Shown piece after piece: positions 2,040 through 27,800 of a DNA stretch of 64,000 nucleotides; position 1 is the stretch's first letter; the number at the start of each line of letters is the position of its first letter. A model generated the notes under the pieces. That model searched no databases. It saw only the letters and a program-made list of their open reading frames with translations, and was not told the DNA's origin. The DNA lies in the NCBI GenBank assembly GCA_038501625.1, contig JAZAYU010000015.1, positions 682,001-746,000 on the forward strand, written 5' to 3'. The DNA is from Corbicula japonica. Its lineage: Eukaryota > Mollusca > Bivalvia > Venerida > Cyrenidae. Made by a program: the position numbers and the translations under genes.

Positions 2040-2737
2040 TTACAAATTTCTGTTGGTTTTGGTGGTCTCCACGAATTCTTGGCTTATGGAGCACATTTCC
2101 GCACAGACTTTAACAAGACGTGGAATAATTATTTTACATCTTTTCTTGCATCTTCTTGGCATTAAACACTGCTTTGCAAGCAATTTGCATTTGACAGATA
2201 GTATAACAAATACCATGAAAAGCATTCTCTTGCCATTATCTTGTTTCTCCCAAAAAGGGCTGGTATACGATAATGTACATAATGAAGCTTTGAGCCTTTT
2301 GACCTTCAATATTTGATTATAGATGTCCGATAGCTTTACCCCATAATTGGTCACGCCATTCTTTGAAATCATTGCCCCTTGAAGCATAGTTACATAACAA
2401 ACTTTGTTTCCAGTGACAATCACTCCAGGTGATCCTGATGCGCCATGTTCAAATGCAAGAGAATGAAAGTTCAGCACACTTGATGTAAGCAGACTGGACG
2501 GCATTTCAATGACTGATCTTTCACAATGTTGTGTTGGTAATTCACTGGGACCTTTGTAACCAACCAAATAGATCGGTAGTCCAGGGCGACATTCTGCCAC
2601 GGATATATTGGTTTGATCTGGTAAATCAGTGTATAACTTCAACACAGCAACATCAAGATCTGTGCTGCAGAACACCATTCTTGAACCACATATCACATTT
2701 GCATCGGGAAAGTCAACATCTATGGATACTGCCGTTC
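2040..2737 (-). CDS. OTU/RHIM/protease gene, terminal exon 6: trypsin-like catalytic Asp and Ser
   Basis: This is the last exon of the multi-exon minus-strand gene. It starts after a TTTTTCTAG acceptor (AG at 2739-2738) and ends at TAA (2042-2040). It encodes the C-terminal half of a chymotrypsin-fold serine protease: DLDVAVLKL holds the expected catalytic Asp, and GASGSPG holds the catalytic Ser in the GxSGxP form typical of trypsin-like and FAM111/HtrA-type domains. The catalytic His lies in the preceding exon at 12150-12341, and the two exons join in phase 1. The protease fold is followed by a basic, Cys-rich tail of about 80 residues that I do not recognise. No polyadenylation signal stands out just downstream. 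The protease assignment is strong; substrate and location are unknown. There is no signal peptide in the model, so a cytoplasmic or nuclear protein is inferred. Confidence 0.8.
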
Positions 2738-2829
2738 CTAGAAAAATACAAATTGATTAAGAATAAATAGGTTTTTGTTGGAATAAAAATAGTACAAAAT
2801 TCCAGCCAACAAAGCGAAAAAAACTAGAA

Positions 2830-4320
2830 TTATCACTGAAAGTGATTAAATACCCTCACATGTGTGCTTGATACTTGAACTGGGAACTTGACCCCACCAG
2901 GCCCATTTTCAATACCAAGACAGACACTACCTATATAGCAATTTTCATCACAATATCTCATTCCAAACTAAAGTTATTGAGCATTTTGAAAAGAGTGATA
3001 AAAACAATGTTGTGCAAAGGCATTAAGTAACTAACACTAGAAACATGGACACATGTAGTAGTGACCTTGACCACACACAACTACTTTCAATCCCAAGCAG
3101 TCTTCAAAGAAGCAACCATAACAGTAAGTTTCATCACAATATCTCATTTCTCACTAAAGTAATTTAGCATAAAAAGTTTTTTTCTATCTTTAGTAACAGT
3201 GGCCTTTACCAGTGACCCCACTCAATCCAAAGTGTCGTCTTCACAGTAGCCACAGCAAGTTTCATCACAATATCTCATTCCTTCTACATTAATTGAGCAG
3301 AAAGTGTTTGCATATGTTAGTAACAGTGACATTTTCTTAACTTTTATCTAACAACTGTGTGCTAAAAATTGTGTAAATATGCGAAGCCTTTCATTAGAAA
3401 TCATCAGAAACCATTTTTTCTATTTTTAGTAACAGTGAATAGTGACCTTGAACCCACCAGGCCCATTTCCAATACCAAGACAGACACTACCCATATAGCA
3501 ATTTTCATCACAATATCTTATTTCGAACTAAAGTTATTGAGCATACAGTTTTTTTCTATTTTTAGAAACAGTGACCTTGACCCCACAGGCCTTACTTTCA
3601 ATCCCAAAAGTCGTCTTCACAGAAACCACCAATACACCAAATTTCATTCAAGAATCTAGGGGAAATGAATTACACAGTTAAAATAACAGTGACCTTGACC
3701 TTGAACCCACAGGCCCCAAAGTAAAACCCAGCCTGTATCTTGTAATGTTAACTCAAAAAGTAGAAAAAAAAATTAAAAAAAATTCCCCCAAAATAATTAA
3801 ATCTATAAAGTATTTTATGTGTTATCGTCCAAAAACAATTTTTCTATTATAAGTAAAAGTGATCTTTACATAGATCCCACAGGCCCCAAAGTGGAACTCA
3901 ACCTGTATCTTCTGATGTTACAGCTATGTCCCCAAAAAGGATTTAATCTGTGAAGTATTTCATCAGTTATCATCCGGAAACCATTTTACTATTTTTAGTA
4001 ACACTGACCTTGACATTGACCCCACAAGCCCCAAAGTCGAACCTGACCTGTATCTTGTGATGTTACATCTGTGTACCATATTTTTTAAAAAAAATATTTG
4101 GTGCCTTTCAGGAGTTATCATCCGGGAAGCATTTTTCTATTTTTTGTAACAGTGACCTTGACACTGACCCCACCAGCCCCAAAACCAATATTGACCTGTA
4201 CCTTATGACGTTACACATGTGTACCAAAAATTATTTAAATCTGTCAAGCCTTTCATGAGTTATCATCCGGAAACGAAGAATCCGACCGACCGACCGACCG
4301 ACCGACCACCAAGCTCACTC
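2830..4320 (+). repeat. Diverged tandem repeat, GTGACCTTGACC family, with GACC tail
   Basis: About ten diverged units of roughly 120-170 bp share AGTAACAGTGACCTTGACC, CACAGGCCCCAAAG and ATCATCCGG blocks. The array ends in a short run of GACC tetramers at about 4282-4308. The layout (TAGTAACAGTGACC monomers, GAC-rich tail) parallels the large array at 21.6-27.8 kb, so both look like members of one bivalve-type dispersed element class. ORFs here are accidental. Confidence 0.75.
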
Positions 4321-4439
4321 CTATATACCCCCTCAAACTTCGTGTGTAAAAACAAAAATACTTATTCTTTTTTTTTCATTTTTGTTGAACATGTAACCGA
4401 AAACCGGACCATTAGTGTGCAACAGAAAATAACATAAAC

Positions 4440-7076
4440 GTAATTCTTTACCATCGTAACTCGTATTAGACATGGTTCTTTCTTTTAAAATCTGCCTTTA
4501 CTCGTCTTATACTTAAAACAATAATTTTGATTCCTTCAAAAAGATGAAGTTATGGCATTTATTACAAAAATATGTGTTCTAGCAGAAATCCATGAAATGC
4601 CTTCATCGTTTTGAAGGTATCACGACTGGGCAGGTTTTTGATGAAATATTTCATTATTAGTCTTACAATAAGAACTAGTGTGCTAAGGGCTATTCCATTT
4701 AAACATCTATCCCACCCCAGGAAGGCACTTTCAAATTAGACCGTCCCCCATTAGAAGCAGACAAAATAGAAAAAAAGTGTGAGGAAAATTATTTGATGGT
4801 ACAGCTTGGACAGAGTCTAACTGCTTTATCTTTTTGGTTATTTTGATGCTTTGTGTTAAATTACACGTTTGAACGGTAAAGTCCGAGGATTCCGTCGGAA
4901 GGTATAATGACAATTTGTCAATTACCGATCATTGATACAGGGTAGTCTGTTTCTGGTATTTACATCGTTGAATAGAGTTCTTTCACATTGTTACCTCCCC
5001 TTAGCGCTCTCTAAAATTGAAGAGCATATTTAGTCGATAAATGCACGCGAGGGGGCATCGTTTACTATTGTTAATATGACTAAGTGATTATAAAATTAAG
5101 AACATGTTGATTAATCATTTCAAATTTATAAATAAGTGAGTTCAGTCAAACAACAAAGAATAAAAAACCGTTATGATCACTTACAAGCACATCAAGAAAG
5201 TTTATGCGCATTTTAAACATTGCTAATCGCCGTATTTTCAGGACGCGAGTATCCGACGGATTTGTTTGGGGTTTTTATGAAAATACACACGTGAATTGTG
5301 TTTACTAAAAATAAATCTGTATAATTGACAATTCAGACGAACATTATCGAACATTTTACGGCATTTTTTTTGTAACGCTATAATTTATAGTGGAATGAGA
5401 CATAAAATTTTATATTCTTATGTAGCTCGTCGGCGACTAGGTTGATATGTGTTTTGCGTGTTTTGCTTTTGAGAAAAAATATTACGTATTTACATAATAG
5501 GATGATTCCAGCTACAACCCGAGAAATCGTTAAATTGATTGAAACAAACGAATATTGCCGGACGGCAGGCCAACCAAAACTATTCAAAAAAATCCAGAGA
5601 GTTTTTTGTTTTGTTTTTTTTTTAAATAAAAACTATTTTGATGTTGAAGTTGGTAATTGTTGTCGCTGAAGGTTTTGAAATATAATATTTTCATTTCTGT
5701 TTAAAATCAAAATGACCATGGACCAAAACAAATGAACGGAACTGCGATATTCAGGTCCGAGTTTAGTTTTATGACACTTAGCTGTTGTGTACATGTGTGC
5801 CCGAGGCATCGTGTCACTATCACGTAATCTCTCAATAAACAGGAAATTTTGGAGCCGTGACCAAGACCAAGTTTCTTAAAATTAATTAATATAATTGTAA
5901 AACCCATTCTAAATTCAGTTAAATTTATGTTTCATTAATTATCCTTTTCAATATTTTTAAATCCTGAGATTTTGCCTGAAAATCCTTAGATCCGGAGAAG
6001 AACCTTACGGTTCGGAGATTTCAGATAAAATCCTGAGATTTTGGAGGTCTGCGGACATTTTATCTTCTGTCTACATCATTCCCGTAACACGTAGATATTC
6101 ATAAAATGCGACTTAAACTAATGTCTATTGACTATGGCTGACGATTTTACAAAAAATGATGTTTATAATAACATGAATAAGACGTAAACTACTACATGAT
6201 CTGCCATTTCAACGCTACAAATTATAGTTATAGAAATATGGGACTGAACTCGTGAAAAATTTTAGGTATTTCAATTTGATGATTTGAGATAATTAATTTT
6301 AAGTCTTCTCAAATGTCAGATATCAAACAAGTTTTCACACCTCAATATGTCACCATCGTTTTCTGGGCAGAATGGGAATGGGAATATTGTGTCAAATATA
6401 TAGGGACAATTAACAGTAACACGGTCGTGTTCAAAGTATGATTTCTAGTTATTAAACATAAAAATAATTTTAATCCAGGACTGATAAAAGAAATATACTA
6501 ATGATTACAATAAATTTAAGTTTTAAACATATGTTGGAAGGAAGTAAAATAGTAAACAAAATAATAACGCTTAACGGGCGTTGAATACAACGGCGATACA
6601 TTGTTGAATTCATCCGTTTTCTTTTCCAATTTAGGGAGATCAAGTTACATAAAATATATTTTTTGAAGTAAACGCATTTTGTCAGAAAAACACGAGACGC
6701 TTATATATGTGTCTGTGGCAAATAGACAGTAACATGCAATCCACATTCTTTTTGTTTTTATATAAGACTTCCTGATTCAAAATTGCAACCACGTCTTTGA
6801 TTGTTTTACGCTTTTCACGAATTTTTTGTGCCTCATCACAATTATTATTATAATTTATCATAAGCTTTAAGGCGACACCGTGATCATGTCCGTCCATTCT
6901 GTTAGCAATGACACAGTTAAATGCCCCCTCACTTGTCGGTTTAGGATAAAACCAATATTTTCCGCACCTAACGTGGCGTACGACGCATGCGCACAACAAT
7001 GTGAAAGACCTCTATTTTGAGTTAACATTTTGGTCTGCATTATAGGTCCAATATAGTACAGCTCCGTACTAGGGCA
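4440..7076. other. Intronic or intergenic DNA, no confident gene
   Basis: This stretch lies downstream of exon 5 and upstream of exon 6 of the minus-strand gene, so it is intronic in that model. A block at about 4687-4735 (GGGCTATTCC...ACCCCAGGA) is a diverged inverted match to 12095-12136. A copy of the 1.1-1.8 kb element motif lies at 5950-6055. A minus-strand ORF at 6682-6999 (105 aa) has moderately protein-like composition, but I cannot match it to any family. Confidence 0.5.
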
Positions 7077-7525
7077 TACACTCAACAAAAGTTCTAATTG
7101 GTCATCGATTGTATTTGTTTACAATGTATGCTAGTTTCGTTTCTTCCCTACGTCAAGAAAGGTTGTGGAAAGAACTGTTTTGTCTTGAAATCAATTTTGT
7201 AATGTCTTTTTAATCTTTATGGATTGTTTTCTTAAATTAATCCAAAACCGTTAACTTACACCACAGGGTCAAAATTAGAACAGTCGTTAATTAAAAGGGA
7301 GGTAATTTTAAAATTGAATACTTTGACCTGTTTATGCAAGAAATGCATTTTTAGCAAAATTACGGATAACTCTCGCCAAACTGTTCCAAAGTCAATTATT
7401 ACAAGATTAAAGCATAAGCTGAAGACTGTTGTTGGCATATGATCATAAATAAAGAGTGAATTCAATGTCTTTCTAATAAAACAATACGGACAAAAAGTGA
7501 CCAATTAGAACTTTGATTGAGTGTA
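7077..7525. mobile_element. Tc1/mariner-type MITE
   Basis: Near-perfect 28-bp terminal inverted repeats open with TACACTCAACAAAAGTTC at 7077 and close with the inverted form ending GAGTGTA at 7525. The ends start and finish with TA, as expected for TA target duplication. The roughly 450-bp interior has no transposase, so this is a non-autonomous element. It lies inside the long last intron of the minus-strand gene. Confidence 0.8.
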
Positions 7526-7599
7526 TTGACCGGATTGTCTCAATCAACGTGTATGATGTGAATAGTATTCGTTGAAGCTAGGGTTGATAGGGTTTTGAG

Positions 7600-7990
7600 A
7601 TAGTGTCTTCAGACAATTGCTGGAAACACATGCGTCTGAGACACTTATGTCCGTAAGGTAGCTTCAGAATAGGTGTTGAGCGTATTTTCTAGATAGTGCC
7701 TTCAGACAATTGCTGGAAACATATGCGTCTGAGACACTTCTGTCCCTGAGGTAGCTTTGAACAGAGTAGGTGTTGAGGATAGGATTTTAGAGTGTCTTCA
7801 GACAATTGCTGGAAACACATGCGTCTGAGACACTTCTGTTCCTCAGGTAGCTTTAGAGTAGGTGTTGAGGATAGGTTTTAGGTTAGACAGTGTTCTCAAA
7901 CTATTGCTGACGAAGAGGTTCTCGTATCCTCGGGATATCACATAAGTCTGAGAAACTACTGTTCAGTAGCGTTTTAGTGTTGAGGGTATG
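7600..7990 (+). repeat. Tandem repeat, 93-96 bp period, about 3.5 copies
   Basis: The phrase CTTCAGACAATTGCTGG recurs at about 7607, 7700 and 7796, each time followed by GCGTCTGAGACACTT and GGTAGCTT. A degenerate fourth unit runs to about 7990. Confidence 0.85.
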
Positions 7991-10900
7991 TTTGAAGGTG
8001 TTTTGCTTGAGGTTTGTTTTGATTGTGGTTTATTCATGACTTTGTTGACCACTGTTTGAAAGTTAAATGGCTCAGATATGATTGCTGTAATGATCCTTAT
8101 ATTTTATTGCATAGCGTGCGCGCTGAGAGTGTGCTGGAAGTGAGATTGTTTTGTTTCAGACTGTGATTTTGTTCAGGAAGAGTGGTTGGGAATTTAATTA
8201 AAGATCAGTTATTTTTGTCCAGGAGGTTCATTGTCATCGGGGTATTTTCCTATATTCTAACCTTGATTTATTTGTTTGAACCCAATCGTTTCTAAAATCC
8301 GTATAATCATTTAAGAGCAAAGTAGCTCAGGAAAAATTTATTATATTGTTCAAAACAATAAACATTGCTTCAGCATATTTATAATTATTGTAGGCGAAAA
8401 ATTATATAATAGGCTGAGACAAATAGTGTTTTATAGTCTGTTTTATGTGCCTTCCGCTCGGGGCACGTTACAAAAGGTATCCCCTATAGAATTTTTTCTT
8501 CATTTTTTGTCCACATTTAGAAGAGATATTTTTTAACCCTTAGAAATTTTTAAATGTTGAACACCATTCATAAATACATGTTTCATTATTGGGAGTTCAT
8601 ATTAATTTTATAAATATTAGTATTAAGTCTACCATCACGTGGCTGTCTAGTTATCCTTTACATACTATAGTTAAATCTACTCCCAAGGACATTGTCAGTG
8701 TAAATGCATGAAAAAATGAATAACGCTGCCATTTTTTGCATATTTTTCCCCCATTTATATATAAAAGTCAAACAGACCTAACATTCATACTTTTAAAGTG
8801 ACTTCATTTACCAAAAGACAGGACAGACATCAAATGATAATTTATTGATAGAAAGTCCTCATTTAGACATGATCCAACAGTTCCGCACGCTCTTTTGACA
8901 GTAAATTAGTTTTGGATAAACTGATAACGGTTTCGGTCTATGAAATTTAAAAAAAAACCATTTGTTTTCCCGTGTAGACCCCCCAAAAATCGTTATTTAT
9001 TTTAGAGGGGTCAGCTCATATAAGTTTTGGAGAAAACGAGGTCCATCTCTAAAGCGCCTGTGGTCTTGCCAACAGATTAAGGCTATTATAAATAAATAAT
9101 AATAATACGAAAACAGCTAATAATTCAAGAATATCTACAGCAAACAAAAGTAGAAAGTAGCAAATACATGTACACGCGATTTTTTTATCGTGTAATTTTC
9201 TTCCCCTGCAATGAGCGGACTTACACTATCCACCGTGATTTTGTACATTCATCACGGGGATGAGCGGATGCCATCGAGGTAACCGATTACCATCCTGATG
9301 TCGCGGAGGATCCGCCGTGGTTGGTCGCGCGAACGCGCTAGCAATTTGTAGTGAAATTTACGTCTGATTATGTTTTGAACACATGCACATTTCCATTTTG
9401 AAATATGAGTAAAACATCTTAATTCTTGATAATTTATTTGATTACGATTGCCAAAAAAGAAAACAGTGCGCAAGGTTTCAGACCGAAGCAAATAAAAACA
9501 AATCTGCTAATTTTCATTAGAAAATTCATTCATATTGAAAATTAACTTCGCATTGTGTTTGTTATGCATGTACGTTTTCCATCTTTAATAATTCGAAGAT
9601 GTGTTTTGTTAATTTCTTTTATAGCTTACGCAATATAAATTTTTAAGAAGTCTTGATGAAAGCAAAGATACGGACAACGCATCATTTTATTTCTTGCATC
9701 GGAGATTCTGAAATGAAAATCTAAATTCTGAAAAAAAAACTGTTTTGAGGAATCTGACATACGCCATCAGATATGACCTACTACCAGATGTCTGGATATT
9801 TTGCGGTAAAAACACACATTATGATTTGCTCGAAACGCACTGTTTGTTCGCCGCTTACATCATACACATATGACGTACAATAAAACAATACGTCTGCAAT
9901 AAAAAGGAGATGATTTACACGAAATGCATGCTTTTTTGCGCACATCATGTGGAAAGTTTTCGTCATGGGTGGTTATCTTTTGACTTTCTTTTTTCTCTAG
10001 GAAAGATTCGCATGAATGGCACGCTACTTGCGAGCAGAATTATGCATTTCTCGGTCACAGATCGAAAGTGTTGTTATCAAAATTATATTATTTAACAAAT
10101 ATCATAACAAGTAGCCTATACATCCTCTTTTTAAAACGAACATTTCTAATGTAGACGTTGTAGCATCCTTTCTGCACAAAACAGTGTTTCGATTATTAAA
10201 AAAAAGCTGTACGATCTTTTACGTAAGATTTTGTAATGTAATAGGAAAATTATGATAATAATTTACAAACATATTAGGTGTTAAACATTTACATTTTAAA
10301 ATATTTATTTATGGCCTTGTTAAGACTAATATCCTTTTCTGGATAACATCAAAAATCTTGTAGGTATTTTAGCCACAGGTCATTTCATGTCTTCACCTGT
10401 ATCTATTAATTACATTGGACTCGATCTTGTTATGATTAAGCAAGACGTTAGATAACTGTTAATGTAATTTATAGATGTTCTTGATGTCAATCTGTCATCT
10501 CGAACAGTAATAAGTCTGCATGAACAGTCTAGGGTATTGCATAAAAGCCAGAGATATTGTATTGTATATTTGGAGAAGAGAACGGCCGGATGGCCGGAAT
10601 GGGCCACGGGATGCCTTTAGGAGTATAGTTTGTTAGTCTCGTGGCTAAATTACTAAACTTTAAATAAGAGAAACTTATGACACTAAGAAATGTATGAGGA
10701 AAATTTATACTTAGGAGAAATAACTGTTTATGTTTTAGAAAGTCGGTTTAAACATTAAATAAACTGTTAAAAGCTTAAAGATATATAAAGTTATTTCGGA
10801 ACTTAAAAAGTGTTTGTGTTATTACACCCTAAGACCTTTGTAAGAATTAACCACTACGTTACAATTTCACCAGGTGTCATTTTATCCAATGTCTGGTCCA

Positions 10901-11500
10901 ATATTTAGCAAGTTTGTAAAAGTGATATCCCTTTGACATACTGACAGTAGGCACTTTTCCCGTTGGTCAAGAACAGGTTATCTCCCGTTGACATTGTACG
11001 ATTCTTTTATTCTGTTTATATTGAACAAATATCCAGTGTAACTCTTGAAAGTAATAACTTCATAGTATAACAGCACCGTATTTACATGAGCGTGAGTGTA
11101 TAAATTTTTTTTTTCAAAAGTTTCAGTTCTAAATAAACTACTTAACGAATAAGCTTGCATGCTTCAAAGCCAAAACAAAACACATCAACGGTTTATCGCA
11201 CTTGTATTTTACTTAAATATTTTAATTCATATGAATCAAATTGAAATTAATGTTCCTATCAAAAGATAGCTATCGGTCGCATCGAGTCGCACGCGAGGAT
11301 AAATGACCAGAGCTCCGCATTTTAGCGCCAAATTTTAAGGTATTCTCGGACTGCCGGATTTCGTTTTCAATACTAAAAAGCTTCATAAGAAAATAAATTT
11401 AACAGTGTTGTTGGAAATACAATATAAAAACACATAGTAAAGCATAGATAGTTTTCGTAACAAATATTCATTTATTTCAAAGGTTATAGAACATCAATAA
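7991..11500. other. Long stretch without a supported gene
   Basis: Only short non-conserved ORFs are present (the longest are about 80 aa). No terminal repeats or family motifs were recognised. In the gene model this is part of the 9.4-kb final intron. Confidence 0.5.
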
Positions 11501-11524
11501 TGATTAATAATATACTAATTGAAT

Positions 11525-11990
11525 TTAAAATATAAACACTGGAAAGTTTTTATTGCCTTTTCTAATCAAATATTGAGCGTCCACGCTTCTACAAATTTTA
11601 ATGTTACCCCCTGCAGAGCTGTGTCCGCCCGAATCAGTGGACAAAGTGGAGAATCCCGGTGGAATTGCTATGACCTCCGAAAACTTGTCCGCTGTGATTT
11701 TGCCCCCCCCCCCCCCCTCCAAACGGTTATACTGTCCGCGGTGGCATCGTGACTCCACGCTGCGTGTACTGCCGTTTGCTTGCATCCACTTTTGGAAGTC
11801 TTCCTTAGAAATTTCGAACGAAACCCGATTAGCCACCATAATTCGCGCCGTTTCTTGTAACGGGAATAGAAGTCACTGTTGCAATTTATATCGTAATACA
11901 ATAAGTTCGGCCCGCACGCCGACGTTTTTCGCCCCACACGCCGACAATTTTCTCGCCTATTTTTCGCTAAACTATACAACCAAACTATCG
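11525..11990 (-). other. GC-richer block with overlapping hypothetical ORFs
   Basis: A minus-strand ORF of 104 aa (11525-11839) opens with ATG, and overlapping ORFs exist in other frames (11668-11979 minus, 11601-12017 plus). The block is more GC-rich than its surroundings and contains a C15 homopolymer at 11703-11717, which falls inside the ORF as a glycine run. I recognise no domain. It sits inside the last intron of the minus-strand gene. It may be a repeat-derived or non-coding segment; coding status is unresolved. Confidence 0.25.
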
Positions 11991-12149
11991 TGTTTTCCGT
12001 TTTTTAACCTCCTTTAGAAGTGAAAACCCTATTTTCCCAACCCCCATTAGAAGTTGTATTTACAGGACCTTCCCCCAATAGAAGTTTTTTATTTTGCCGT
12101 CCTGGGGTAGGATATATGTTTAACTGGAATAGCCCTAATTTAAACTTGC

Positions 12150-12341
12150 CTTCCTCCAAGAGCACGTGTTTAATCACGTGGTATGCGGTCATTACGTAGG
12201 AAGGGCCAATTCGGAAACATGTGCCTATTACTCCTTTGCCCGTTCTGACAACGCCGATATTTCCACGTACGACTTGTAGAATTCTATCATTTTCTTCATG
12301 AATCGGTAATGGTGTTTTCAGAACATCATCTTGCTTGGAGC
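12150..12341 (-). CDS. OTU/RHIM/protease gene, exon 5: protease N-terminal half with catalytic His
   Basis: The exon is 192 nt, entered after AAATAG (AG at 12343-12342). It encodes the N-terminal beta-barrel of a trypsin-like protease: a GNIGVV strand, a GVIGTCFRIG glycine-rich turn, then YVMTAYHVIKHV, whose TAYHV matches the catalytic His motif. The exon ends GAGGAAG followed by GCAAGT. That is the consensus of a GC-AG intron donor, and it restores phase 1 with exon 6 (the split codon gives Gly). The alternative GT donor two bases further on would be phase 2 and break the join. The His-to-Asp spacing across the junction is about 45 residues, normal for the fold. Immediately 3' of the exon is a dispersed repeat, which supports the exon end. 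Confidence 0.8.
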
Positions 12342-12569
12342 CTATTTAGTTGAAAAAAAAAATCAAAAGTAGAAAGTTATTACAATAAACACACTGACAA
12401 AAGACATGTTGCAACACACTGACAATAACATGTTGCTGACCAACTTTTAGTTTTGCTGCACTAATGAATACTTCATTAACCTTAACTTCAACAGTACGAT
12501 ACTCCCATACTACTAGTACTTTTCACCCTGTCGATCTCTTTTCCGATATCACTAAAACGCGAAAACACA

Positions 12570-12720
12570 ATGCGTGGTCATGAAAGCACGTTATCAATAT
12601 CGCACCCTAGCATTGTAATTTCGTACCTGGCATCGTGTTCTTGCGTCCTCGCATCGGGGATTGCGATCTCTCATTGTGTTTTCGAGGTTTCGTGTTCGTG
12701 TCCAAGAGGTCGACAGAGTA
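12570..12720. repeat. Degenerate short repeats in GCATCG/TCGTG phrasing
   Basis: The block repeats near-copies of CGCACCCTAGCATTGTAATTTCG, CGTACCTGGCATCGTG and CGTCCTCGCATCGGGG. It is an imperfect tandem pattern of about 25-30 bp with no coding support. Confidence 0.4.
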
Positions 12721-12807
12721 AAACGGAATACTGTACTACAGCGTACATGTATAATTTTGCAGTTACATGAAATCACATTTTACTAAAGGCATATAATAAA
12801 AGTGGTA

Positions 12808-12895
12808 AATAAAATGGACTCCAATGACTCAAACGTTGTATTTTCTGGCTAACCGTGTCGTCAGTTAACCAGTTGAGCTATAAAAGCCATCTGAC
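12808..12895 (-). repeat. tRNA-like (probable tRNA-derived SINE) fragment
   Basis: The minus strand reads GGCTTTTATAGCTCAACTGG, which contains an A-box-like TAGCTCAACTGG. About 50 bases later comes GTTTGAGTC, resembling a B box. The arms do not form a clean cloverleaf, so I do not call a functional tRNA gene. Confidence 0.35.
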
Positions 12896-13499
12896 ATAAG
12901 TATTAATATGTTCATCCACTTTTAAATAGTTCAAGTATGGTCTCCAAATTGCATTCTTTATACAGGTATAAAATCTTTACATATGTGCATGTCAATACTT
13001 TTTATTGACATGGTTATAGGTATATCAATAAACCGATACTTTGGTTACTACACACTTCGCTTCTTGTACTGTGGTCTTTAAATGAGGAATTAGTAATTGA
13101 TTTGGCAAATTTCTCTATGGCTGCATAGGTTCAAGTGAATAAGTTCTTAGTCAACATTTCCTTCAGGATATTACCAAGAGTGGTAAAGAGAATATGCCTT
13201 GTTAGTGGAAATTGTGTACGTGGACTCAAAATCTCGGATCTCCAACTTAACGTGCCATCGTTCTACTATTCAACTGCTACTACAAAATTATTATATCGAT
13301 TCTGAGTTAAGTTTTATTGTTTAAAGTAACTTTAAATTTATGTTTAGTATGTATGAGGGCATTTGTGTCCAATATTGTCGAGTGTTTCGGTTGGCTAGCT
13401 GGAGTTAACACCGAGGAAGATTGTACCAGTTTGTTCATATGAGAACCTGTTGTGGCAAATGTGATGTTGTTTCGCTTCGAACGTGGTTTAAACCAATTG

Positions 13500-13700
13500 A
13501 AATAGGTGAAATGGGAACTTTGAAAGCCACCGAACACGACAAATATGAAAATATTGCAGTCTCGGTTTGATTGAGCCTGTTCATGGACAGTAATGAAAAT
13601 GCATATTACTGCACACGCCGCCTAGCCCCGGGTTGAACGCAACTCAATATTAACACAAATAAACAGTACAATTTAGATCCATCCCAAACGATGGTGTCAA
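13500..13700 (+). repeat. Dispersed repeat, ACTTTGAAAGCCACCGAA family
   Basis: It contains GGAACTTTGAAAGCCACCG, ATTGAGCCTGTTCATGG and GCAACTCAATATTAAC. The first blocks recur at 59360-59470 and, more diverged, at 31790-31860. The last block recurs in the opposite orientation at 62570-62665. It is non-coding and I infer a transposon fragment. Confidence 0.7.
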
Positions 13701-13974
13701 TATGGCGGTGAACATGTAACATTCAATGCGGAATTTTCAGATTAATACCATTCCATGTAGGCAAAGAAGTATTTTTACGATATCATATTGTTAAATTATG
13801 CTTTCCATTATTTTATTTTGCAATGTTGCTGTGCGAGGCTGTGTTGTCATCATGTGTTCGTCTTGTTATGCATATTTCACTTCTTTCAACGATAGTGAAT
13901 GTCTGAGACTTGCGTTAATAGAAACTTAACGTAAGACAGGTTAGACAATAATCATAACGAACACAACAACTTAC

Positions 13975-14598
13975 AGAATGGCTCCAGGCGGATATCTAGT
14001 TCTGATATGCCCTCACACAGATTTCCTGCTTCTTTGTTTTGCAAAGCTGTGCTAACAACTTGTTCAGGAAAACCTGTGATATCCATTTCCTGACGATTGT
14101 TTTCAGATGTCTTGCTAAACAACAAAGAAATGCCTCTAGATACCTCCGGTGACTTGGCACTAACTTCTCCTTCATATTTATCGTCTAGTATTTCTACATC
14201 GGATCCAGCTTGTGCAACTTCACGATTTGTTTTTCTCCGTATGTCTACTTTTACTCTTAAGCTCAACATGACATCAACATGTAAGTTTTGTTGTTCGAAT
14301 AATTTCTTTGTAGAACAAAGACAGGCAATTACACCAATAATGTCTCCGCCTTGAAAGCTGTTTACAAAATCAAAAAAAGACTCGTTCGATTGTGGTAGCA
14401 GCTCAATTTTAATGCATCCTTGTAGCGCATTTTGAAACGAAACTCCAAAGTTATTAAGCAATGGTTCAAGATTTTGTCTTGTTTCACTTTCATCGTCATT
14501 AAGAAGCTCTATGAGCCTCGCCTCCTTCTCTGCTAATTGTTCTTCTGTTAAGGTGCTTGACTTGATTCTGATCTTAAGTCGGAGCGCCGGTTCTGAAA
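13975..14598 (-). CDS. OTU/RHIM/protease gene, exon 4: adaptor-like alpha/beta domain
   Basis: The exon is 624 nt, entered after TTTGTCCAG (AG at 14600-14599) and ending at a strong CATTCT/GTAAGT donor (GT at 13974-13973). Both ends are phase 1 and match exons 3 and 5. A second possible acceptor six bases on would create a stop codon. It encodes a charged helical segment (TLTEEQLAEKEARLIELL), then a compact domain with QGCIKIELLP, an aromatic/Gly helix region (FFDFVNSFQGGDIIGVIACL) and a LHVDVMLSLRV strand. This resembles domains I recall in lophotrochozoan death-fold/NLR-like proteins and TRADD-N-type domains. That similarity is from memory and weak. A low-complexity linker of about 80 residues follows and leads to the protease. 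Confidence 0.7.
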
Positions 14599-14799
14599 CT
14601 GGACAAAGAAAGAAATGTTTATTAACATAGTGAGGTTGTAAAACGTGCTAAAAGATATGGAATCGATGAAATATTACTTCAAATTTTGATTTCAGTTAGA
14701 TATTGACCCTGCACTTCAACACTTCACAATACGCCGATCACATTGTGGCCATGCGACGACTGTGACAACTGCCGCACCAATCAGAAAACGCATCTTTCG

Positions 14800-15020
14800 G
14801 CTTCGAAACACGGTGTGTGTGTGGGGGGATCGTGCACAACCGTTACCGTTGGTAAAGCGAGAAAAATGTTTTTCAAAGTTCCAAATTTTAATAAAGATGA
14901 GTCAAAGCCGATCATCTACCTTTTCTGATCAAAATGAACGTTTGATAGTACCGTCATCCGAACTTTGCAGAAATTTTTCTCGCTTCACCAGCGGTAACGG
15001 TTATTCGCGATCCGTCCGTG
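14800..15020. repeat. Intronic foldback (imperfect inverted repeat)
   Basis: A left arm near 14833-14885 (CAACCGTTACCGTTGGTAAAGCG, AAAAATG) is inverted at about 14968-15010 (CGCTTCACCAGCGGTAACGG). The spacer is about 85 bp. It lies in intron 3 and is GC-richer than the flanks. It is possibly a small foldback element. Confidence 0.6.
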
Positions 15021-15497
15021 TTGTCGCTGCGGGTTCATTCTCCTTGCGGAATATTAAACTGAAAGTGTCGCTTTCTAAAGATATGAATGTTGGAATAAGA
15101 AAGGACGTGTCTTAAAGTAAAGAAACCTGAAGACGTGATTAACTATGAACAACAGATTGTCTTTTTAACTCTCCAGCTTCTACTCAACGGAAAAATTAGT
15201 CGCCTCGTCGCGCTTTTGATGTTTTATCTACAAGCCAAAATGTAGGTTTTAGTTATGTAGGTTATTGTTGGTCAACCTATCTCGGAATTTGAGTTTGCCG
15301 CACTATTATTATTTTTTGTTTTGCATTATAACAATAAGTAACGTTTCTCACCTTTTTAGAGTTTTGTTTAAGTATTTGTAATTTAATTGCACCTATGCCC
15401 GTCAAATTCTTGTGCGTGGGTGTCACTCTTTTCCTCCGTCCCCACACGAATCCGCTGTGAATATAACATAACAATAAAACAATTAATAGATACTTAC

Positions 15498-15806
15498 ATT
15501 CCTTTTGTTGCTCGCGCATTTCGTTCATGAATTTCAGTAGCTCCTTCGCAGTTCTAAATGTAGCTACAACGTTTTGAGTGTTTCCTTCTCCTATGACGAT
15601 GTTTCGGGATTCTACATATTCCTCTTGGCCGTCCGCAGTGGGCATATGTACTACCACATACTGATTAGAGTTGTCACCAATGAGAACATTTGAATTACCA
15701 CCTATCATGAAGTTTGTTTGTGTACTCGTGGAATCTGAATTTGCATCTTCGATATCATTTTCGGTTGGCATTAGACCCTTTTGATGTGTCAAGGCATTTC
15801 TATTTT
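15498..15806 (-). CDS. OTU/RHIM/protease gene, exon 3: RHIM-like amyloid motif segment
   Basis: The exon is 309 nt, entered after GTTTTCAACAG (AG at 15808-15807) and ending GGAAT/GTAAGT (GT at 15497-15496), with phase 1 at both ends. About 40 residues in lies FMIGGNSNVLIGDNSNQYV, then NIVIGEGNTQNVV. Each contains a hydrophobic-x-hydrophobic-G-x-x-N core like the RHIM signature (I/V-Q-I/V-G-x-x-N) of RIPK1, RIPK3 and TRIF, and like the amyloid motifs of fungal and bacterial signalosomes. The Gln is replaced by Met, Leu or Val, so these are RHIM-like rather than canonical. The motif segment is flanked by disordered Ser/Thr/Asn-rich and acidic sequence, and the exon ends in a short helix (TAKELLKFMNEMREQQKE). 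The inferred role is homotypic oligomerisation. Confidence 0.7.
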
Positions 15807-16152
15807 CTGTTGAAAACAAATGCATAGTCTTGATACACCTTTTTTAGTTCAGATGTGAGTGTATGCGATACAAAATGACCATTTTCTTGAATAATGTTTC
15901 AGTTTCAGTACTATTAGTTCTTTAACTAATATGATAAATTCAAAGACAGAAATGTTCTTAAACGAATGAAATATTTGTTAACTCTTTTCGTTCATCACTT
16001 AATTAGATCATACGAAAGGAAATAATGCAATGTTAAAAGCATTCAACATCTGGTAATTGTTTCAGTCTATTACTGGATGCGATAATACTTTTGATAATTC
16101 TTGCCTTAAATTTTTTTTTTTTTTTAACAAGTAACAGTATTCTGTAACCTAC

Positions 16153-16578
16153 CATTTTGTTTAAAGGCTGGGCTCTCTGTCACAGGTCTCAATGAGTAGT
16201 AACGTCCCCTCCGATCACAACCAACATACAGAGTTTGCATTGGTCGCTGAATCGGGCAGTCGGCTGGACGGAACACAGTGGAACCAAAACTGTCACTGTG
16301 TATAATTTCAATGTTTCTGTTGTACATATTTGCTAAATGTTGAAACGATTCCATGTCATTATGTGAAGTCTTTCTTTTAGACTGATAATCTTTAGATCGT
16401 TTTCGCAGGATTGTTTGCGTGTATGTCCCGTTATGGTTTAGATGACACAGCTGATCTTCAACAGCAGAGTACAAGGTGCCGCCTGGTACTTCATACAGGA
16501 CAAGTCCAAGCCTCTCGGCTTTGCGCTTTAAACAGCAATTTTCTTGCTCCACTGCCTGGATTTGGTGTCTATATCTTG
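16153..16578 (-). CDS. OTU/RHIM/protease gene, exon 2: OTU-like pseudo-deubiquitinase domain
   Basis: The exon is 426 nt, entered after TTATTTCAG (AG at 16580-16579) and ending AATG/GTAGGT (GT at 16152-16151), with phase 1 at both ends. A short coiled-coil-like lead (QAVEQENCCLKRKAERLGL) precedes YEVPGGTLYSAVEDQL. This aligns with the OTU motif VPGDGNCL(F/Y)xAVxDQL, but the four-residue DGNC loop is reduced to two residues, removing the catalytic Cys. Later come ESFQHLANMYNRNIEII, which fits the OTU helix-strand, and GRYYSLRP, which fits the C-terminal HYNSLxP motif with the catalytic His replaced. It is therefore predicted to be a catalytically inactive OTU fold, perhaps binding ubiquitin or used as a scaffold. 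OTU membership is judged by eye. Confidence 0.7.
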
Positions 16579-17164
16579 CTGAAATAATGTTTATATACTA
16601 TTTTGAGATCTTTATTAATGCATTTTACTATTCACCGAATACTATAACAACTCTCGAAAAAGCATCTTCTTATACCGTTAGATATAGTTCATCTATAAAA
16701 ATAATGATGAACAAGAAAACTTTCTGGCTCTCGAAAGAGATTCTATTGGACTAAACAATTTGAACCGGAGATACAATATCAAAATCAACCTGTTTCAACA
16801 AGTTAGAGATTAAACTTGTTCATCAACTGATCTAACAAAAAAGTTGGATAGCAAAATGATGTTCTACAGACTGTTTATCCCTAATATATGGTTTATTTCA
16901 AGTCAATTTATAACCGTCCCTGTTTTGTTGGTGTTCTTAAGTAACAGTATAAAAAAGTACATGATTTCGAAATCACGTATAAACCCCGGATTACCGTATA
17001 TAGCGTATTGAGGCAGACTTGTTTTATGTTGGTAGACGTTACAAATAACGAAAACTTAAAATTTTTTTAATTAAGTAAAAATTGTAACTTATCATAAAAA
17101 TATCTAATGCTGATACTATAATGCAAAATGTTCTTATTCTTATCAACAGCAAGATATTTTTCTT

Positions 17165-17215
17165 TTTTAAAACAGTGACATTAGTCAAAGACCTGCATAT
17201 AGGTCTTTGCCTTAG
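17165..17215. repeat. Short palindrome, CAAAGACCTGCATATAGG type
   Basis: The sequence AGTCAAAGACCTGCATATAGGTCTTTGCCT folds on itself. A second member of the same palindrome (CAAAGACCTATATA...TATATAGGTCTTTG) is at 29395-29430. These are possibly ends of a small element. Confidence 0.6.
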
Positions 17216-17577
17216 TCATAAAATGATGATGCAACATTCATTTAAGTAGCTTCTGTTTTATTAATCTAATCGATTACGAAATTTGTTAATATATTTTTTC
17301 ATCAACGTTTTTCGGGCAATGCTATAACCGTGATAGCAATTATTAATCAAGAAAACTGATAAAGTTACATAAAATAATTTTTGGTGTAAGCAACTTTATT
17401 TTAACCTATTTAATGACTGTCTTCTGAAAAGTGTGTAGATTTCTTTAAACAATTTTCAAATACGATCTATATTACGCACAACTGCTACGTCTTTCCCTGC
17501 TGACCCGATGATACAAAAGATGTGGTATCCGTTGTTTAGATTTGAGTTCGCAACGGTCAATATCTCATTTTATAAAT

Positions 17578-19444
17578 CACGCCCGGTAAACATTCGCTCC
17601 ACAACCAAAAAGAGAACATAACAAAATGAGCGAAAGCCACTTCCGGGATTGAGCGAAAGCGCTGATTTGTTGACAAAAAGTGAGTATGACCAACATTTTT
17701 TCTCTTTATAAGACAGAAGGACGAACTTTTTAACAAAAAATCGGGGAATGTAGTGCCGTGTAGGTGTGATGAAGCTTCACGAAAACACGGTTACATATTT
17801 TAAACATGTAAATTATTCAGGCTAGAACTTTTTTCCCACCGAACAATGACGCAGGTTTCTTTACAAACTTGTCATTTCGACTTAATTTTGTTCTTTAAAT
17901 TGCTTTTAACAATTATTTCTATGTTGCGTGTAAATCGAATACCTGTCGCTTGTGAGTGCTGTACAGATTTCGGATGGTGTAACGTCTTTTTAAACGATTT
18001 ATGCTCATTTTTCAAGAGGTGTAGGAGCGAAAGAGCTAGTTGTGGAGCGAAATCATAGTAGGTAGAGCGAAAATATAACTTCATAATCGATGTTATTGCA
18101 TCATTTTAACTTGTTTGTTAACACATTCATTTGAATTCAAATTTGATCGACAAGCTCCTTGTTAATTTACAAGTAAGCAAGAATGATTATTATAGTGGCA
18201 TTTAAACACGGGATGCATATACGATTACAAATATCAGTATAAACTGTACCTGGCTCCCTAAAAACATAAAATGAAAATACGCTTACATATGTGTACACCT
18301 TATATGAAGTATAAATATTTTATTTATAGATAAACGTTCATGACCATGTTGTGATCAGATAAATATTTCCTAACACATTTATACAAATATATTAAATCGA
18401 AAATCGTAAGACTAAGTAGATAAAAATACCGTGTTATGAAGAAAACACGATTAGTAAACGACAGGCGATTTAAATCACACTGTCACAGTCAACCCCACAC
18501 AATTCAGAAGACTTTTTATCAAACTTACCTGCATCTTTTCTTTTATTACAAAATATTACTTTGAGATATATTGACATTTACTAGCTTTTGATACAATGCT
18601 GATATTGATTTAACAGGGGCAAGATGACAGAAACAGATTATGGTAAAAAAATATATCCTTATGAGGCAAAGACGAACGGAATAGCAGCATTTATGTATCC
18701 CAAGAAAATGCGCGAATACTAAAATTGACATGTATTGGTGCTTGCCGTTTACTCTTCGAAATTCTAAGATAAATATATGTAGGTGCGATGAAAAAAGATT
18801 ATTGATAACTCCTTCTCGTCGCAACATTTTTTTTTCCACATTAATTGACATTGTGTTCAACAAAACATAATATTACTTTATATTGAAATGTCTGGGAGCT
18901 GTAACACACGTACGTGAGAAATCTAGATCTGTAGTGAATACGTTTAGACTGACAAACACAGGTATCCTGGTGTTATGTTTTCGCTCTTCCTCTCAGCTTT
19001 CGCTCCGCAACTAGCTCTTTCGCTCGTACACCTCTTGAAAATGGGACAGTAACCGTTTAAAGAGGCATTAATTCACCCGAAATCTGTACAGCAATCACTA
19101 GCGACAGGTATTCGATTTACACGCAACACAAAAATAATTTCTAAGAGCAAAATTAAGTCGAAATGACAAGTTTGTAAAAAGCATTCACCATTGTTCGCTG
19201 GCAAAAAAGTTCTAGCCGGAGCAATTTACATGTTTAAAATATGTAACCGTGTTTTCCGTGAAGCTTCATCATCCCTACACGGCACTACATTCCCCAAATT
19301 TTGAAACGTTCTTCTTTCCGTCCTTTAAAGAGAAAAGGTGTTAGTCATATTAACTTTTTGTCTGCCTTCGCTCAATCCCGGAAGTGGCTTTCGCTCATTT
19401 TGTAATTATCTCTTTTTGGTTGTGGAGCGAATGTTTACCGGGCA
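17578..19444. mobile_element. Long-inverted-repeat element (arms about 500 bp)
   Basis: The left arm 17578-18079 starts GCCCGGTAAACATTCGCTCC and contains repeated GAGCGAAAG and GGAGCGAAA phrases. The right arm 18973-19444 is its inverted copy and ends GGAGCGAATGTTTACCGGGC. The interior of about 900 bp shows no transposase. A second right arm at 20272-20758 shows that the right part was duplicated in tandem. The structure fits a foldback-type or other long-TIR DNA element. No clear target duplication was identified. Confidence 0.7.
18529..18577 (-). CDS. Candidate first coding exon of the OTU/RHIM/protease gene
   Basis: An ATG at 18577-18575 opens 16 codons (MSIYLKVIFCNKRKDA with the split codon) and ends at a consensus donor GATGCAG/GTAAGT (GT at 18528-18527). 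The donor is phase 1 and would join exon 2 (starting CA) to give Ala. With this exon the six exons sum to 2298 nt, an exact multiple of three ending in the exon 6 stop, although any phase-1 leader would achieve that. A stop codon lies directly upstream of the ATG. The exon sits inside a long-inverted-repeat element, and its duplicated copy near 19950-20015 has a stop, so this may be coincidence or a transposon-supplied 5' exon. Confidence 0.35.
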
Positions 19445-19633
19445 TGTATTTGTGCTTTGTTTTGTTTCTTTCAGATGGGAGCGTTTACATGGTGCAAGGG
19501 AAAATGTTATTTCCTATCATGAAAGAAAACGGAAATTTATTCATCGTTTAAAGTACCGAGACAGAATAGCAATCTGTTAAAAATAAAATGATGATTATCA
19601 AACATATTCCACAGGAAATATGTCGTTTTTTTA

Positions 19634-20758
19634 ACACAGGATTTATATATACGACTACAATTATCAGCATAAACTGTACCTGGCTCCCTAAAATCATATG
19701 ATGAAAATATACCTACATATAAATGAAGTGTAAACATTTTGTTTATAGATAAACGTTCTTGACTATGTTGTGATCAGATATAATATTTCCAAACACATTT
19801 ATACACATTTACACATATATTATATCTAAAATCATGAGACTACATAGATACAAAAGTACTGTGTTATGAAGAAAACAGAATTAGTATCTAAATTAGATTT
19901 AAATCACACTGTCACTGTCAAACAATTCAGAAGGCTATTTTTCAGATTTACCTGCATCTTTACTTTTATTACAAAAATTCTACTTTAAGATATGTTGACA
20001 TTTACTAGCTTTTGATACGATAATTAATTGTCAAGTAATGGTGCTTGTCGTTTACTCTTCAAAATTCTAAGATAAATATCTCTAGGTGCAATGAAAACAT
20101 TTATTGGAAAACTCCATCTCGTTGCAACATTTTTTCCTCATAAATCAACATTGTGTTCAAGAAAATATAAAAAAATTTATATTGAAATGTCTCGGAGCTG
20201 TAACATATGAACGTGAAAAATCCAGGAGTGTAGTGAATACGTTTAGACTGACAAACATAGGTATGGTGGTGTTATGTTTTCGCTCTGCCTCCTATGATTT
20301 CGCTCCACAACCAGCTCTTTCGCTCCTACACCTCTTGAAAAATGAACATAAATCGTAAAAAAGAGGCATTACATCATTTGAAATCTGTACAGCAGTCACT
20401 AGCAACCAGTATTCGATTTACACGCAACACAGAAATAATTTCTAAAAGCAATCAAAGAACAAAACTAAGTCGAAATGATCAGTTTGTAAAAAGAAAGCAC
20501 CATTTCTAGCCGGGAAAAAAGTTCTAGTCGCAGCAGTTTACATGTTTAAAATATGTAACCGTGATTTTCATGAAGCTTCATCATCCTTACACGGTACTAC
20601 ATTCCCCGATTTTTTGAAAAGTTCGTCTTTCTGTCTTATAAAGACAAAATTGTTGGTCACACTCGCTTTTTGTCTGCTTTCGCTTAATCCCGGAAGTGGC
20701 GTTCGCTCATTTTGTTATTATCTCTTTTTGGTTGTGTAGCGAATGTTTACCGGGCGTG
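19634..20758. repeat. Tandem duplication of interior and right arm of the inverted-repeat element
   Basis: The sequence from AAACTGTACCTGGCTCCC at 19671 through the right arm end at 20758 is a diverged direct copy of 18241-19444 (offset about 1.3-1.43 kb because of indels). Minus-strand donor-like GATGCAGGTAA is present in both copies, but the second copy carries a stop in the 5' exon frame. Confidence 0.7.
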
Positions 20759-20859
20759 TAAATAGCGATCACATCGTCACTCACATGTCAATGTAATGTT
20801 CACATGAGCGGTGTGTTCACATTGTCAATATCTAGATAATAAATTATCTGTCGTGTTAG

Positions 20860-21593: not shown

Positions 21594-24500
21594 AGGGCGA
21601 TGATGGCCCTTTATCGCTCACCTGAGTACAACAAAGTTATTTTTAGTAACAGTGACCAAGACCCAGATGACCTATATTCGAACTCATCCGAGAAATCATT
21701 GGGACAAACATCCTGACCAAGTTTCATGACAATCGGAGCAAAAATGTGACTGCTAGAGTGTTAACAAGAAAATTCTATTTTTAGTAACAGTGACCTAGTT
21801 TTTGGACCCAGATGACCCATATTCGAACTCTTCCAAGAAATCATTGGGACAAACACCCTTACCATGTTTCATGACAATCGAGGCAAAAATGTGACCCCTA
21901 GAGTATTAACAAGAAAATTCTATTTTTAGTAACAGTGACCTAGTTTTTGGACCCATATTCGAACTCGTCCAAGAAATAATTGGGACAAACATCCTGACCA
22001 AGTTTCATGACAATCGGAGCAAAAATGTGATCGCTAGAGTGTTAACAAGAAAATTCTATTTTTAGTAACAGTGACCTAGTTTTTGGACCCAGATGACCCA
22101 TATTCGAACTCGTCCGAGAAAGCATTGAGACAAACATCCTGACCAAGTTTCATGACAATCAGAGCAAAATTGTGACCGCTAGAGTGTTAACAAGAACATT
22201 CATTTTTTAGCAACAGTGACCTTGTTTTTGGACCCAGATGACACATATTCGAACTCGTTCGAGAAATCATTGGGACAAACATCCTGAACAAGTTTCATGA
22301 CTATCGGAGCAAAAATGTGACCGCTAGAGTGTTAACAAGAAAATTCTATTTATAGTAACAGTGACCTAGTTTTTGGACCCAGTTGACCCATATTCGAAGT
22401 CGTCCGAGAAATCATTGGGACAAACATCCTGACCAAGTTTCATGACAATCGGAGCAAAAATGTGACCGCTAGAGTGTTTACAATATAATTCTATTTTTAG
22501 TAACAGTGACCTAGTTTTTGGACCCAGATGACCCATATTGGAACTCGTCCGAGAAATCATTGGGACAAACATCCTGACCAAGTTTCATGACAATCGGAGC
22601 AAAAATGTGACCGCTAGAGTGTTAACAAGAAAATTATATTTTTAGTAACAGTGACCTAGTTTTTGAACCCAGATTACCCATATTCGAACTCGTCCGAGAA
22701 ATCATTGGGACAAACATCCTGACCAAGTTTCATGACAATCGGAGCAAAAATGTGACAGCTAGAGTGTTAACAAGAAAATTCTATTTTTAGTGACAGTGAC
22801 CTAGTTTTTGGATCCAGTTGACCCATATTCGAACTCGTCTGAGAAATCATTAGGACAAACATCCTGACCAAGTTTCATGACAATCAGAGCAAAATTGTGA
22901 CCGCTAGAGTGTTAACAAGAAAATTCTATTTTTAGCAACAGTGACCTAGTTTTTGGACCCAGATGACACATATTCAAACTCGTCCGACAAATCATTGGGA
23001 CAAACATCCTGACCAAGTTTCATGACAATCGGAGCAAAAATGTGACCGCTAGACTGTTAATGAGAAAATTCTATTTTTAGTAACAGTGACCTAGTTTTTG
23101 GACCCAGTTGACCCATATTCGAACTCGTCCGAGAAATCATTGGGACAAACATCCTGACCAAGTTTCATGACAATCGGAGCAAAAATGTGACCGCTAGAGT
23201 GTTTACAATATAATTCTATTTTTAGTAACAGTGACATTGTTTTTGGATCCAGATGACCCATATTCGAACTCGTCCGAGAAATCATTGGGACAAACATCCT
23301 GACCAAGTTTCATGACAATCGGAGCAAAAATGTGATCGCTAGAGTGTTTACAATATAATTCTATTTTTAGTAACAGTGACCTAGTTTTTGGACCCAGATG
23401 ACCCATAATCGAACTCGTCCGAGATATCATTGGGACAAACATCCTGACCAAGTATCATGACAATCGGAGCAAAAATGTGACCGCTAGAGTGTTAACAAGA
23501 AAATTCTATTTATAGTAACAGTGACCTAGTTTTTGGACCCAGATGACCCATATTCGAACTCGTCCGAGATATCATTGGGACAAACATCCTGACCAAGTTT
23601 CATGACAATCGGAGAAAAATGTGATCGCTAGAGTGTTAACAAGAAAATTCTATTTTTAGTAACAGTGACCTAGTTTTTGGACCCAGATGACCCATATTCG
23701 AACTCGTCCGAGAAAGCATTAGGACAAACATCCTGTCCAAGTTTAATGACAATCGGAGCAAAAATGTGACCGCTAGAGTGTTAACAAGAAAATTCTATTT
23801 TTAGTAACAGTGACCTAGTTTTTGGACCCAGATGACCCATATTCGAACTCGTCCGAGAAATCATTGAGACAAACATCCTGACCAAGTTTCATGACAATCA
23901 GAGCAAAATTGTGACCGCTAGAGTGTTAACAAGAACATTCATTTTTTAGCAACAGTGACCTTGTTTTTGGACCCAGATGACACATATTCGAACTCGTCCG
24001 AGAAATCATTGGGACAAACATCCTGACGAATTTTCATGACTATCGGAGCAAAAATGTGACCGCTAGAGTTTTAACAAGAAAATTCTATTTATAGTAACAG
24101 TGACCTAGTTTTTGGACCCTGTTGACCCATATTCGAAGTCGTCCGAGAAATCATTGGGACAAACATCCTGACCAAGTTTCATGACAATCGGAGCAAAAAT
24201 GTGACCGCTAGAGTGTTTACAATATAATTCTATTTTTAGTAACAGTGACCTAGTTTTTGGACCCAGATGACCCATATTGGAACTCGTCCGAGAAATCATT
24301 GGGACAAACATCCTGACCAAGTTTCATGACAATCGGAGCAAAAATGTGACCGCTAGAGTGTTAACAAGAAAATTATATTTTTAGTAACAGTGACCTAGTT
24401 TTTGAACCCAGATTACCCATATTCGAACTCGTCCGAGAAATCATTGGGACAAACATCCTGACCAAGTTTCATGACAATCGGAGCAAAAATGTGACAGCTA

Positions 24501-27500: not shown

Positions 27501-27800
27501 CTGACCAAGTTTCATGACAATCGGAGCAAAAATGTGACCCCTAGAGTGTTAACAAGAAAATTCTATTTTTAGTAACAGTGACCTAGTTTTTGGACCCAGA
27601 TGACCCATATTCGAACTCGTCCGAGAAATCATTGGGACAAACATCCTGACCAATTTTCATGACAATCGGAGCAAAAATGTGACCGCTAGAGTGTTAACGA
27701 ATTAAGTGTGGACGGACGACGGACGACGGACGACAGACGACGTCCGACGGACATTCATCGATCCTAATAGCTTACCCTGAGCCAGCTCAGGTGAGCTTAA
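21594..27800 (+). mobile_element. 6.2-kb element built of about 42 tandem 145-bp monomers
   Basis: The head reads AAGAGGGCGATGATGGCCC and CGCTCACCTGAG (21616-21626). The tail has GGACGACGGACGAC runs and ends with CTCAGGTGAGC (27786-27796), the exact inverse of the head motif, so the unit has 11-bp subterminal inverted repeats. Between them lie about 42 monomers of 145 bp, each with GTGACCTAGTTTTTGGACCC, CGAACTCGTCCGAGAAATC, CATCCTGACCAAGTTTCATG and AACAAGAAAATTCTATTTTTAG. Monomer variants recur every 12 units (1739 bp). The roughly 71-82 aa minus-strand ORFs are by-products of the repeat. Elements with this head are common in bivalves; I infer a non-autonomous mobile unit with satellite-like core expansion. 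Confidence 0.85.

Follow-up and report, generated by a model that had tools for sequence, protein, structure and literature searches.

FAM111A carries N-terminal ubiquitin-like domains ahead of a C-terminal Trypsin_2 protease, cleaves itself and takes part in antiviral defence (PMC9798293; papers are cited here for the accessible parts of their text). Multidomain immune proteins with a TRADD-N domain have expanded in bivalves, in a survey whose accessible text mentions trypsin with bacterial systems only and whose main text, to the same extent, has no mention of RHIM or OTU (PMC8195603). A RIPK1-like protein with a conserved RHIM has been described in the zebra mussel (PMC12119088), and a cockle iridovirus encodes a CARD-RHIM protein resembling bivalve ones (PMC12452177). 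Here we describe a gene, hereafter gene A, on the minus strand of a 64,000-nucleotide stretch of the bivalve Corbicula japonica (assembly GCA_038501625.1, contig JAZAYU010000015.1, positions 682,001 to 746,000; hereafter the window). Its product is predicted to place a catalytically dead OTU-like domain, a pair of N/G/Q motifs and a further domain ahead of an intact trypsin-like serine protease.

Like FAM111A and FAM111B, gene A has a C-terminal Trypsin_2 domain (PF13365) with intact His, Asp and Ser, N-terminal modules that may be tied to ubiquitin biology, and an adjacent duplicate (PMC9798293). It differs from FAM111 in giving no ubiquitin-like Pfam match, its OTU-like, motif-pair and exon 4 domains standing there instead. 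By analogy, FAM111A would be the nearest working counterpart, and the nearest evolutionary setting appears to be the expanded families of multidomain immune proteins known from bivalves and other marine invertebrates (PMC8195603). No description of this architecture was found in full-text searches of a library that holds few subscription papers.

An earlier note on this DNA had proposed one gene of six minus-strand exons in uniform phase 1, and its coordinates, phases and sum were reproduced. The segments (window 18577-18529, 16578-16153, 15806-15498, 14598-13975, 12341-12150 and 2737-2040) join into 2298 nucleotides including the stop codon, giving 765 residues, with every junction in phase 1 and introns of 1950, 346, 899, 1633 and 9412 nucleotides. 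The guanine plus cytosine (GC) content is 40% in the coding sequence versus 36% in the window. GT is the donor at four junctions and GC at the fifth, that of exon 5 (GAAG/GCAAGT); a GC-AG reading of this odd donor holds because the equivalent donor in a paralogue, B, is GT (GAAG/GTAAGC). The one-gene structure stood for exons 2-6, which recur in two paralogues, and was unsupported for exon 1 (MSIYLKVIFCNKRKDA, 18529-18577, minus strand). This doubtful 49-nucleotide segment is an open frame with an ATG and an in-phase GTAAGT donor and has 22% GC. It lies within 18201-18597, a stretch 80% identical to 19629-20021. Above exon 2 of paralogue B, a search for its counterpart gave no match beyond chance, and the A-B alignment ends about 40 nucleotides above exon 2. 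Lying in repeat DNA and having no counterpart in paralogue B, exon 1 was dropped as unsupported. The 5' end of gene A is provisional, and so would be any statement on a signal peptide or cell location. In the surrounding region, 17574-20760, repeats of about 0.4-0.7 kb with 80-85% identity, direct as well as inverted, are nested within one another and engulf the proposed exon.

The paralogues came from searches of the whole assembly (1.07 Gb; the window is C15:682001-746000 in it), in which the best candidates only were scored, so that copy numbers are lower bounds. Exon 4 gave three matches at an expectation value (E) of 1 or less: gene A itself (100%) and two further loci, C15:673824-674444 (paralogue B, 50%) and C15:969862-970485 (paralogue C, 38%). 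The same three loci were recovered with exon 6, and with exon 3 at E <= 10, the latter search adding one chance match (E 1, three stops); the exon 2 copies are from the fetched B and C loci only. Over 80 kb around the two paralogues, every exon from 2 to 6 had one strong partner in each of them, with order and strand conserved. Identities for exons 2-6 were 77, 58, 50, 64 and 55% between A and B, and 48, 49, 39, 55 and 46% between A and C. Splice sites and phases agree across the three copies by eye, and exons 2-6 are free of stops. Paralogue B is a tandem neighbour, its exon 2 lying downstream of A, about 8 kb past the stop codon, and C lies about 0.29 Mb away on the same contig.

Between A and B, the ratio of nonsynonymous to synonymous substitution rates (dN/dS) was about 0.40 when the protease-coding stretch of exon 6 was pooled with exons 2-5, and 0.23-0.58 exon by exon, with a dN of 0.27. 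Against C, synonymous sites were saturated (proportion of synonymous differences 0.79 for A-C and 0.81 for B-C) while dN was 0.49. Synonymous saturation between A and C at this dN therefore indicates coding constraint, and the substitution pattern is one of constraint on the protein and not of chance. Found in the same order, with the same splice sites and no stops in two paralogues, exons 2-6 are, on this comparative evidence, a real split gene. The gene thus predicted is one of a small, selected and locally duplicated family with at least three copies on one contig.

The protease is encoded by exon 5 (12150-12341, minus strand), which holds its first part with the catalytic His524 (codon 12180-12178), and by exon 6 (2040-2737, minus strand), which holds its second part with Asp562 (2654-2652) and Ser634 (2438-2436), a variable C-terminal tail and the stop. 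Trypsin_2 matched residues 509-639 of A at E 1e-7 with 33.3 bits, and matched B and C with 32.5 and 34.1 bits, all above the cut-off of 27.6; the His524, Asp562 and Ser634 triad is invariant in all three copies. These data bear out the trypsin-like protease with His, Asp and Ser that had been read by eye, and an intact trypsin-like serine protease is predicted. A PDB sequence search with A alone returned no serine protease. With a three-copy profile, serine proteases appeared as weak matches only, the best being SplD (E 0.046), with a chloroplast Do-like (HtrA-type) protease among them (E 0.056). The tails after the protease vary, that of A ending in a stretch both mildly hydrophobic and basic, that of B made of imperfect repeats and that of C short. 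In a genome-wide Trypsin_2 search, the sole match listed was locus L001 1450-2142, an ordinary trypsin by its motifs; in all three genes the domain is interrupted by an intron, which may be the reason why they were not listed.

Exon 2 (16153-16578, minus strand) is tentatively labelled a catalytically dead OTU-like domain, a plausible reading of its sequence. Once the exons were trimmed, the OTU family PF02338 was matched in A (E 0.13, 13.2 bits) and B (E 0.11, 13.5 bits), both below the cut-off of 23.3; no OTU match was given in Pfam by trimmed C, nor by any of the three genes while its exons were untrimmed. With the three-copy profile, OTUD5 (3tmo) was matched at E 0.079 over exon 2 positions 47-128, a part that takes in both the final motif and the stretch LANMYNRNIEI. 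The usual OTU motifs are DGxC and a final His motif. The DGxC site reads PGGT in A, PGCT in B and PGNT in C, placing a Thr (Thr51 in A) at the Cys position by motif reading in all three, and the final motif reads GRYYS (A) or GCYYS (B and C), and the final 25 residues of aligned exon 2 contain no His in any copy. The likeness to OTUD5-type deubiquitinases lies in the sub-threshold profile match over positions 47-128, whereas the Thr at the Cys position and the lack of a His in the final motif set all three copies apart from them. An active OTU is excluded by the absence of the catalytic Cys and His. Of the OTU-like fold proposed in the earlier note, what remains are hints below threshold from two libraries; the catalytic residues are missing, and C gives no match. 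If the domain is an OTU, loss of its catalytic residues most simply would predate the split of the copies.

Exon 3 (15498-15806, minus strand) is a segment with a duplicated N/G/Q motif of the form N-x3-G-[DE]-x3-Q-x-V, present in A, B and C as copy R1 (in gene A NVLIGDNSNQYV, 15655-15690, minus strand) and copy R2 (NIVIGEGNTQNV, 15568-15603, minus strand). The start-to-start distance is exactly 29 residues in all three genes. The pattern, which was derived from the tested sequences themselves, occurred seven times in 175,778 translated residues (the window plus loci L005-L012), and six of these occurrences were the pairs described here. The self-alignment score of exon 3 was equalled by 9 (A), 0 (B) and 25 (C) of 2000 shuffles, and the repeat by itself is moderately significant.

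Three RHIM motifs had been claimed for this exon. A loose RHIM-like pattern, made after seeing the sequence and occurring 18 times in the translated frames of the window, does match three times in exon 3 of gene A, a number reached in 2 of 200,000 exon shuffles. The first of the three is not conserved (FMIG in A, FMAG in B, AAIG in C), leaving two conserved N/G/Q motifs in all three copies. A RHIM requires either a core of the form G-(I,V)-Q-(I,V)-G (PMC7885112) or the tetrad (V/I)-Q-(V/I)-G (PMC12119088). Both conserved motifs fail this core; neither core nor tetrad occurs anywhere in the 765 residues of A, and in the aligned stretches of exons 2-6 the core is missing from all three genes. 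RHIM membership is excluded by the lack of the core in exon 3. What exon 3 has in common with RHIM and related amyloid motifs are short hydrophobic G/N/Q motifs in a central position, whereas it differs from the RHIM in having no core in any copy, and amyloid assembly by this exon is putative. A single canonical tetrad, VQIG, was seen in exon 4 of paralogue C only (L010 4862-5485, minus strand), outside the motif region; it is taken as chance because A and B are without it.

Exon 4 (13975-14598, minus strand) encodes a domain of unassigned family, probably alpha/beta. It is conserved along its full length, with 50% identity in B and 39% in C. In Pfam it gave one chance-level match in A (MA-Mit, E 0.1) and none in B or C, in the PDB only matches at E 0.68 or worse, and in the protein database, when searched as a profile, none at E <= 10 among 3856 candidates scored. 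The earlier note had suggested a TRADD-N-type domain, for which Pfam, the PDB and hhalign gave no statistical support. The comparison covered the human TRADD fragment and the TRADD families of Pfam; the latter were not matched at E <= 10 by any of the three copies, whole or trimmed, and the Smith-Waterman score against the human fragment was equalled by 502 (A), 1666 (B) and 804 (C) of 3000 shuffles. In C, the register suggested by eye came out best both in alignment and in hydropathy correlation (0.51); it ranked third in A (0.31) and fell outside the best three in B. A Gly-Cys pair (GC) is invariant in all three copies; its placement in a turn between strands 2 and 3 is by eye. Metazoans have multidomain immune proteins with TRADD-N (DEDD2 and NCOA6 clades), duplicated in marine invertebrates that include bivalves. 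The family resembles these in its duplication and multidomain build, in having a middle domain flanked by two others, and in this Gly-Cys pair, which recalls their turn of a tiny residue and Ser or Cys (PMC8195603). It differs from them in that A, B and C have no TRADD match in Pfam and none by profile to human TRADD, and no death-fold domain was found in A. The TRADD-N label is a by-eye resemblance that serves as a lead.

The paralogues also have features of their own. Paralogue C (locus L010 7721-9442, minus strand) has a polar, Asn/Gln-rich (24%) extension ahead of the OTU-like domain in the same exon, of about 422 residues when counted from an acceptor placed by eye; the matching exon of A and B has no such extension. 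Upstream of C, a 922-residue open frame (locus L011 5943-8708, minus strand), Gln/Ser/Asn-rich by eye, is either a separate gene or part of C. In B, the repeats of the tail after the protease (locus L006 below 8912, minus strand) were recognized by eye (VKARPDMEPLVRSEW.. and similar).

In searches that took in no collection of animal proteomes, the only relative found outside the assembly was P0001, a metagenomic protein of 200 residues from a contig of 1383 bases, which shares 90% identity with exon 6 of C over 199 residues. The 765-residue model had no match at E <= 0.001 among 7994 candidates scored in the protein database, and NCBIfam and PADLOC gave weak partial matches only, far below the cut-off where one is given. 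Chance was taken to explain such weak Pfam and PDB matches as those to multi-haem cytochrome, bacteriophytochrome, MA-Mit and MurB.

The order of the parts, with an intact protease placed after a dead OTU-like head, the motif pair and a further domain, suggests proteolysis regulated by clustering. In this model, the OTU-like head would bind but not cut its partner, which may be ubiquitin, a ubiquitin-like protein or a protein of an invader, and the doubled motif together with the exon 4 domain would gather several molecules. Crowding would then activate the C-terminal protease, which may cleave itself and host or invader proteins, leading to a defence or cell-death response. Cell location, binding, clustering, activation and immune role are all inferred here; among mechanisms, activation by clustering appears the likeliest. 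We put the probability that the family encodes modular proteases with a clustering-activated role in defence at roughly 0.4. These multidomain serine proteases are probably defence-related, and a role as death or immune effector can fairly be inferred from the architecture and local duplication. Several observations count against this reading. The OTU support is below threshold in A and B and absent for C alone, and in the search that gave OTUD5 an unrelated beta-propeller design scored slightly better (E 0.041). The RHIM core or tetrad is found in exon 3 of none of the three copies, and hhalign gave exon 4 a probability of 0.1 per cent against the human TRADD fragment. Single-sequence AlphaFold models of exon 2 and exon 4 alone were uninformative, with mean predicted local distance difference test (pLDDT) scores of 37.6 and 40.2. 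Finally, three copies only were found among the best candidates scored, which argues that this is not a large immune-type expansion.

The family could instead be a divergent housekeeping protease of FAM111 or HtrA type, removing DNA-protein crosslinks or misfolded proteins, whose N-terminal modules choose substrates and are not pathogen sensors. Such a protease would account for a Trypsin_2 domain above cut-off in every copy, for the match to FAM111A in both Pfam domain and C-terminal position and for the weak HtrA-type profile match to the chloroplast Do-like protein. FAM111 works at replication forks besides antiviral defence, and two FAM111-like proteins of marine invertebrates have no ubiquitin-like domains (PMC9798293). 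But no FAM111 structure was among the PDB matches at E <= 10, with either the single sequence or the profile, and the rapid divergence of the tandem copies and their variable C terminus are unlike housekeeping; we regard this explanation as somewhat unlikely. Clustering-activated defence also has to be set against a more specific proposal, in which exon 3 really does form a functional amyloid, of a new kind with two repeats, and the enzyme is an amyloid-gated protease. The two-repeat HET-s fold offers a comparison. The fixed 29-residue spacing in all copies and the rarity of the pattern agree with this proposal, as does the naming of N/Q and G conservation as a feature of amyloid signalling motifs (PMC7885112), and a RHIM is possibly functional in a central position (PMC7889193). 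The exon has no G-phi-Q-phi-G core, however, the repeat is moderately significant only, under a pattern drawn from the same sequences, and N-x3-G-[DE]-x3-Q-x-V would equally suit a small globular beta domain. Amyloid gating seems unlikely, as does an elaboration of it: templated clustering through a two-repeat, non-RHIM amyloid-type motif, in a protein with a deubiquitinase-like dead head, would directly activate the trypsin-like protease on the same chain and make one protein sensor, amplifier and executioner.

That open frames were chained by chance, or that these are pseudogenes in decay, might be suspected from the doubtful exon 1, the last intron of 9.4 kb and several transposable-element genes elsewhere in the window. 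Against this stand five stop-free exons whose order, phase and splice sites are shared by two paralogues, the constraint on the protein and the metagenomic relative of C's last exon, so that for exons 2-6 the paralogues exclude such a reading, and for the gene as a whole it is highly improbable.

If the clustering model is true, sensing would lead to proteolysis within one chain that needs neither a caspase nor a separate receptor, and the family would join a protease, unusually, to a possible self-assembly motif. Even without clustering, it is a clean gene family of unusual architecture with three natural variants.

Elsewhere in the window, remains of transposable elements were observed at 34969-40577, 46413-48453 and 56013-56354. 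Their domains include DDE_Tnp_4 with HTH_Tnp_4, which we take to be Harbinger-like, reverse transcriptase, RNase H and integrase, presumably of a Ty3-type retroelement, and a hAT dimerisation domain, assigned by us to hAT. A recombinase of the DUF3504/phage-integrase type was also seen, with its integrase part below cut-off. At window 21660-27698 a 145-bp unit is repeated about 42 times in a satellite array, with 93% matches.

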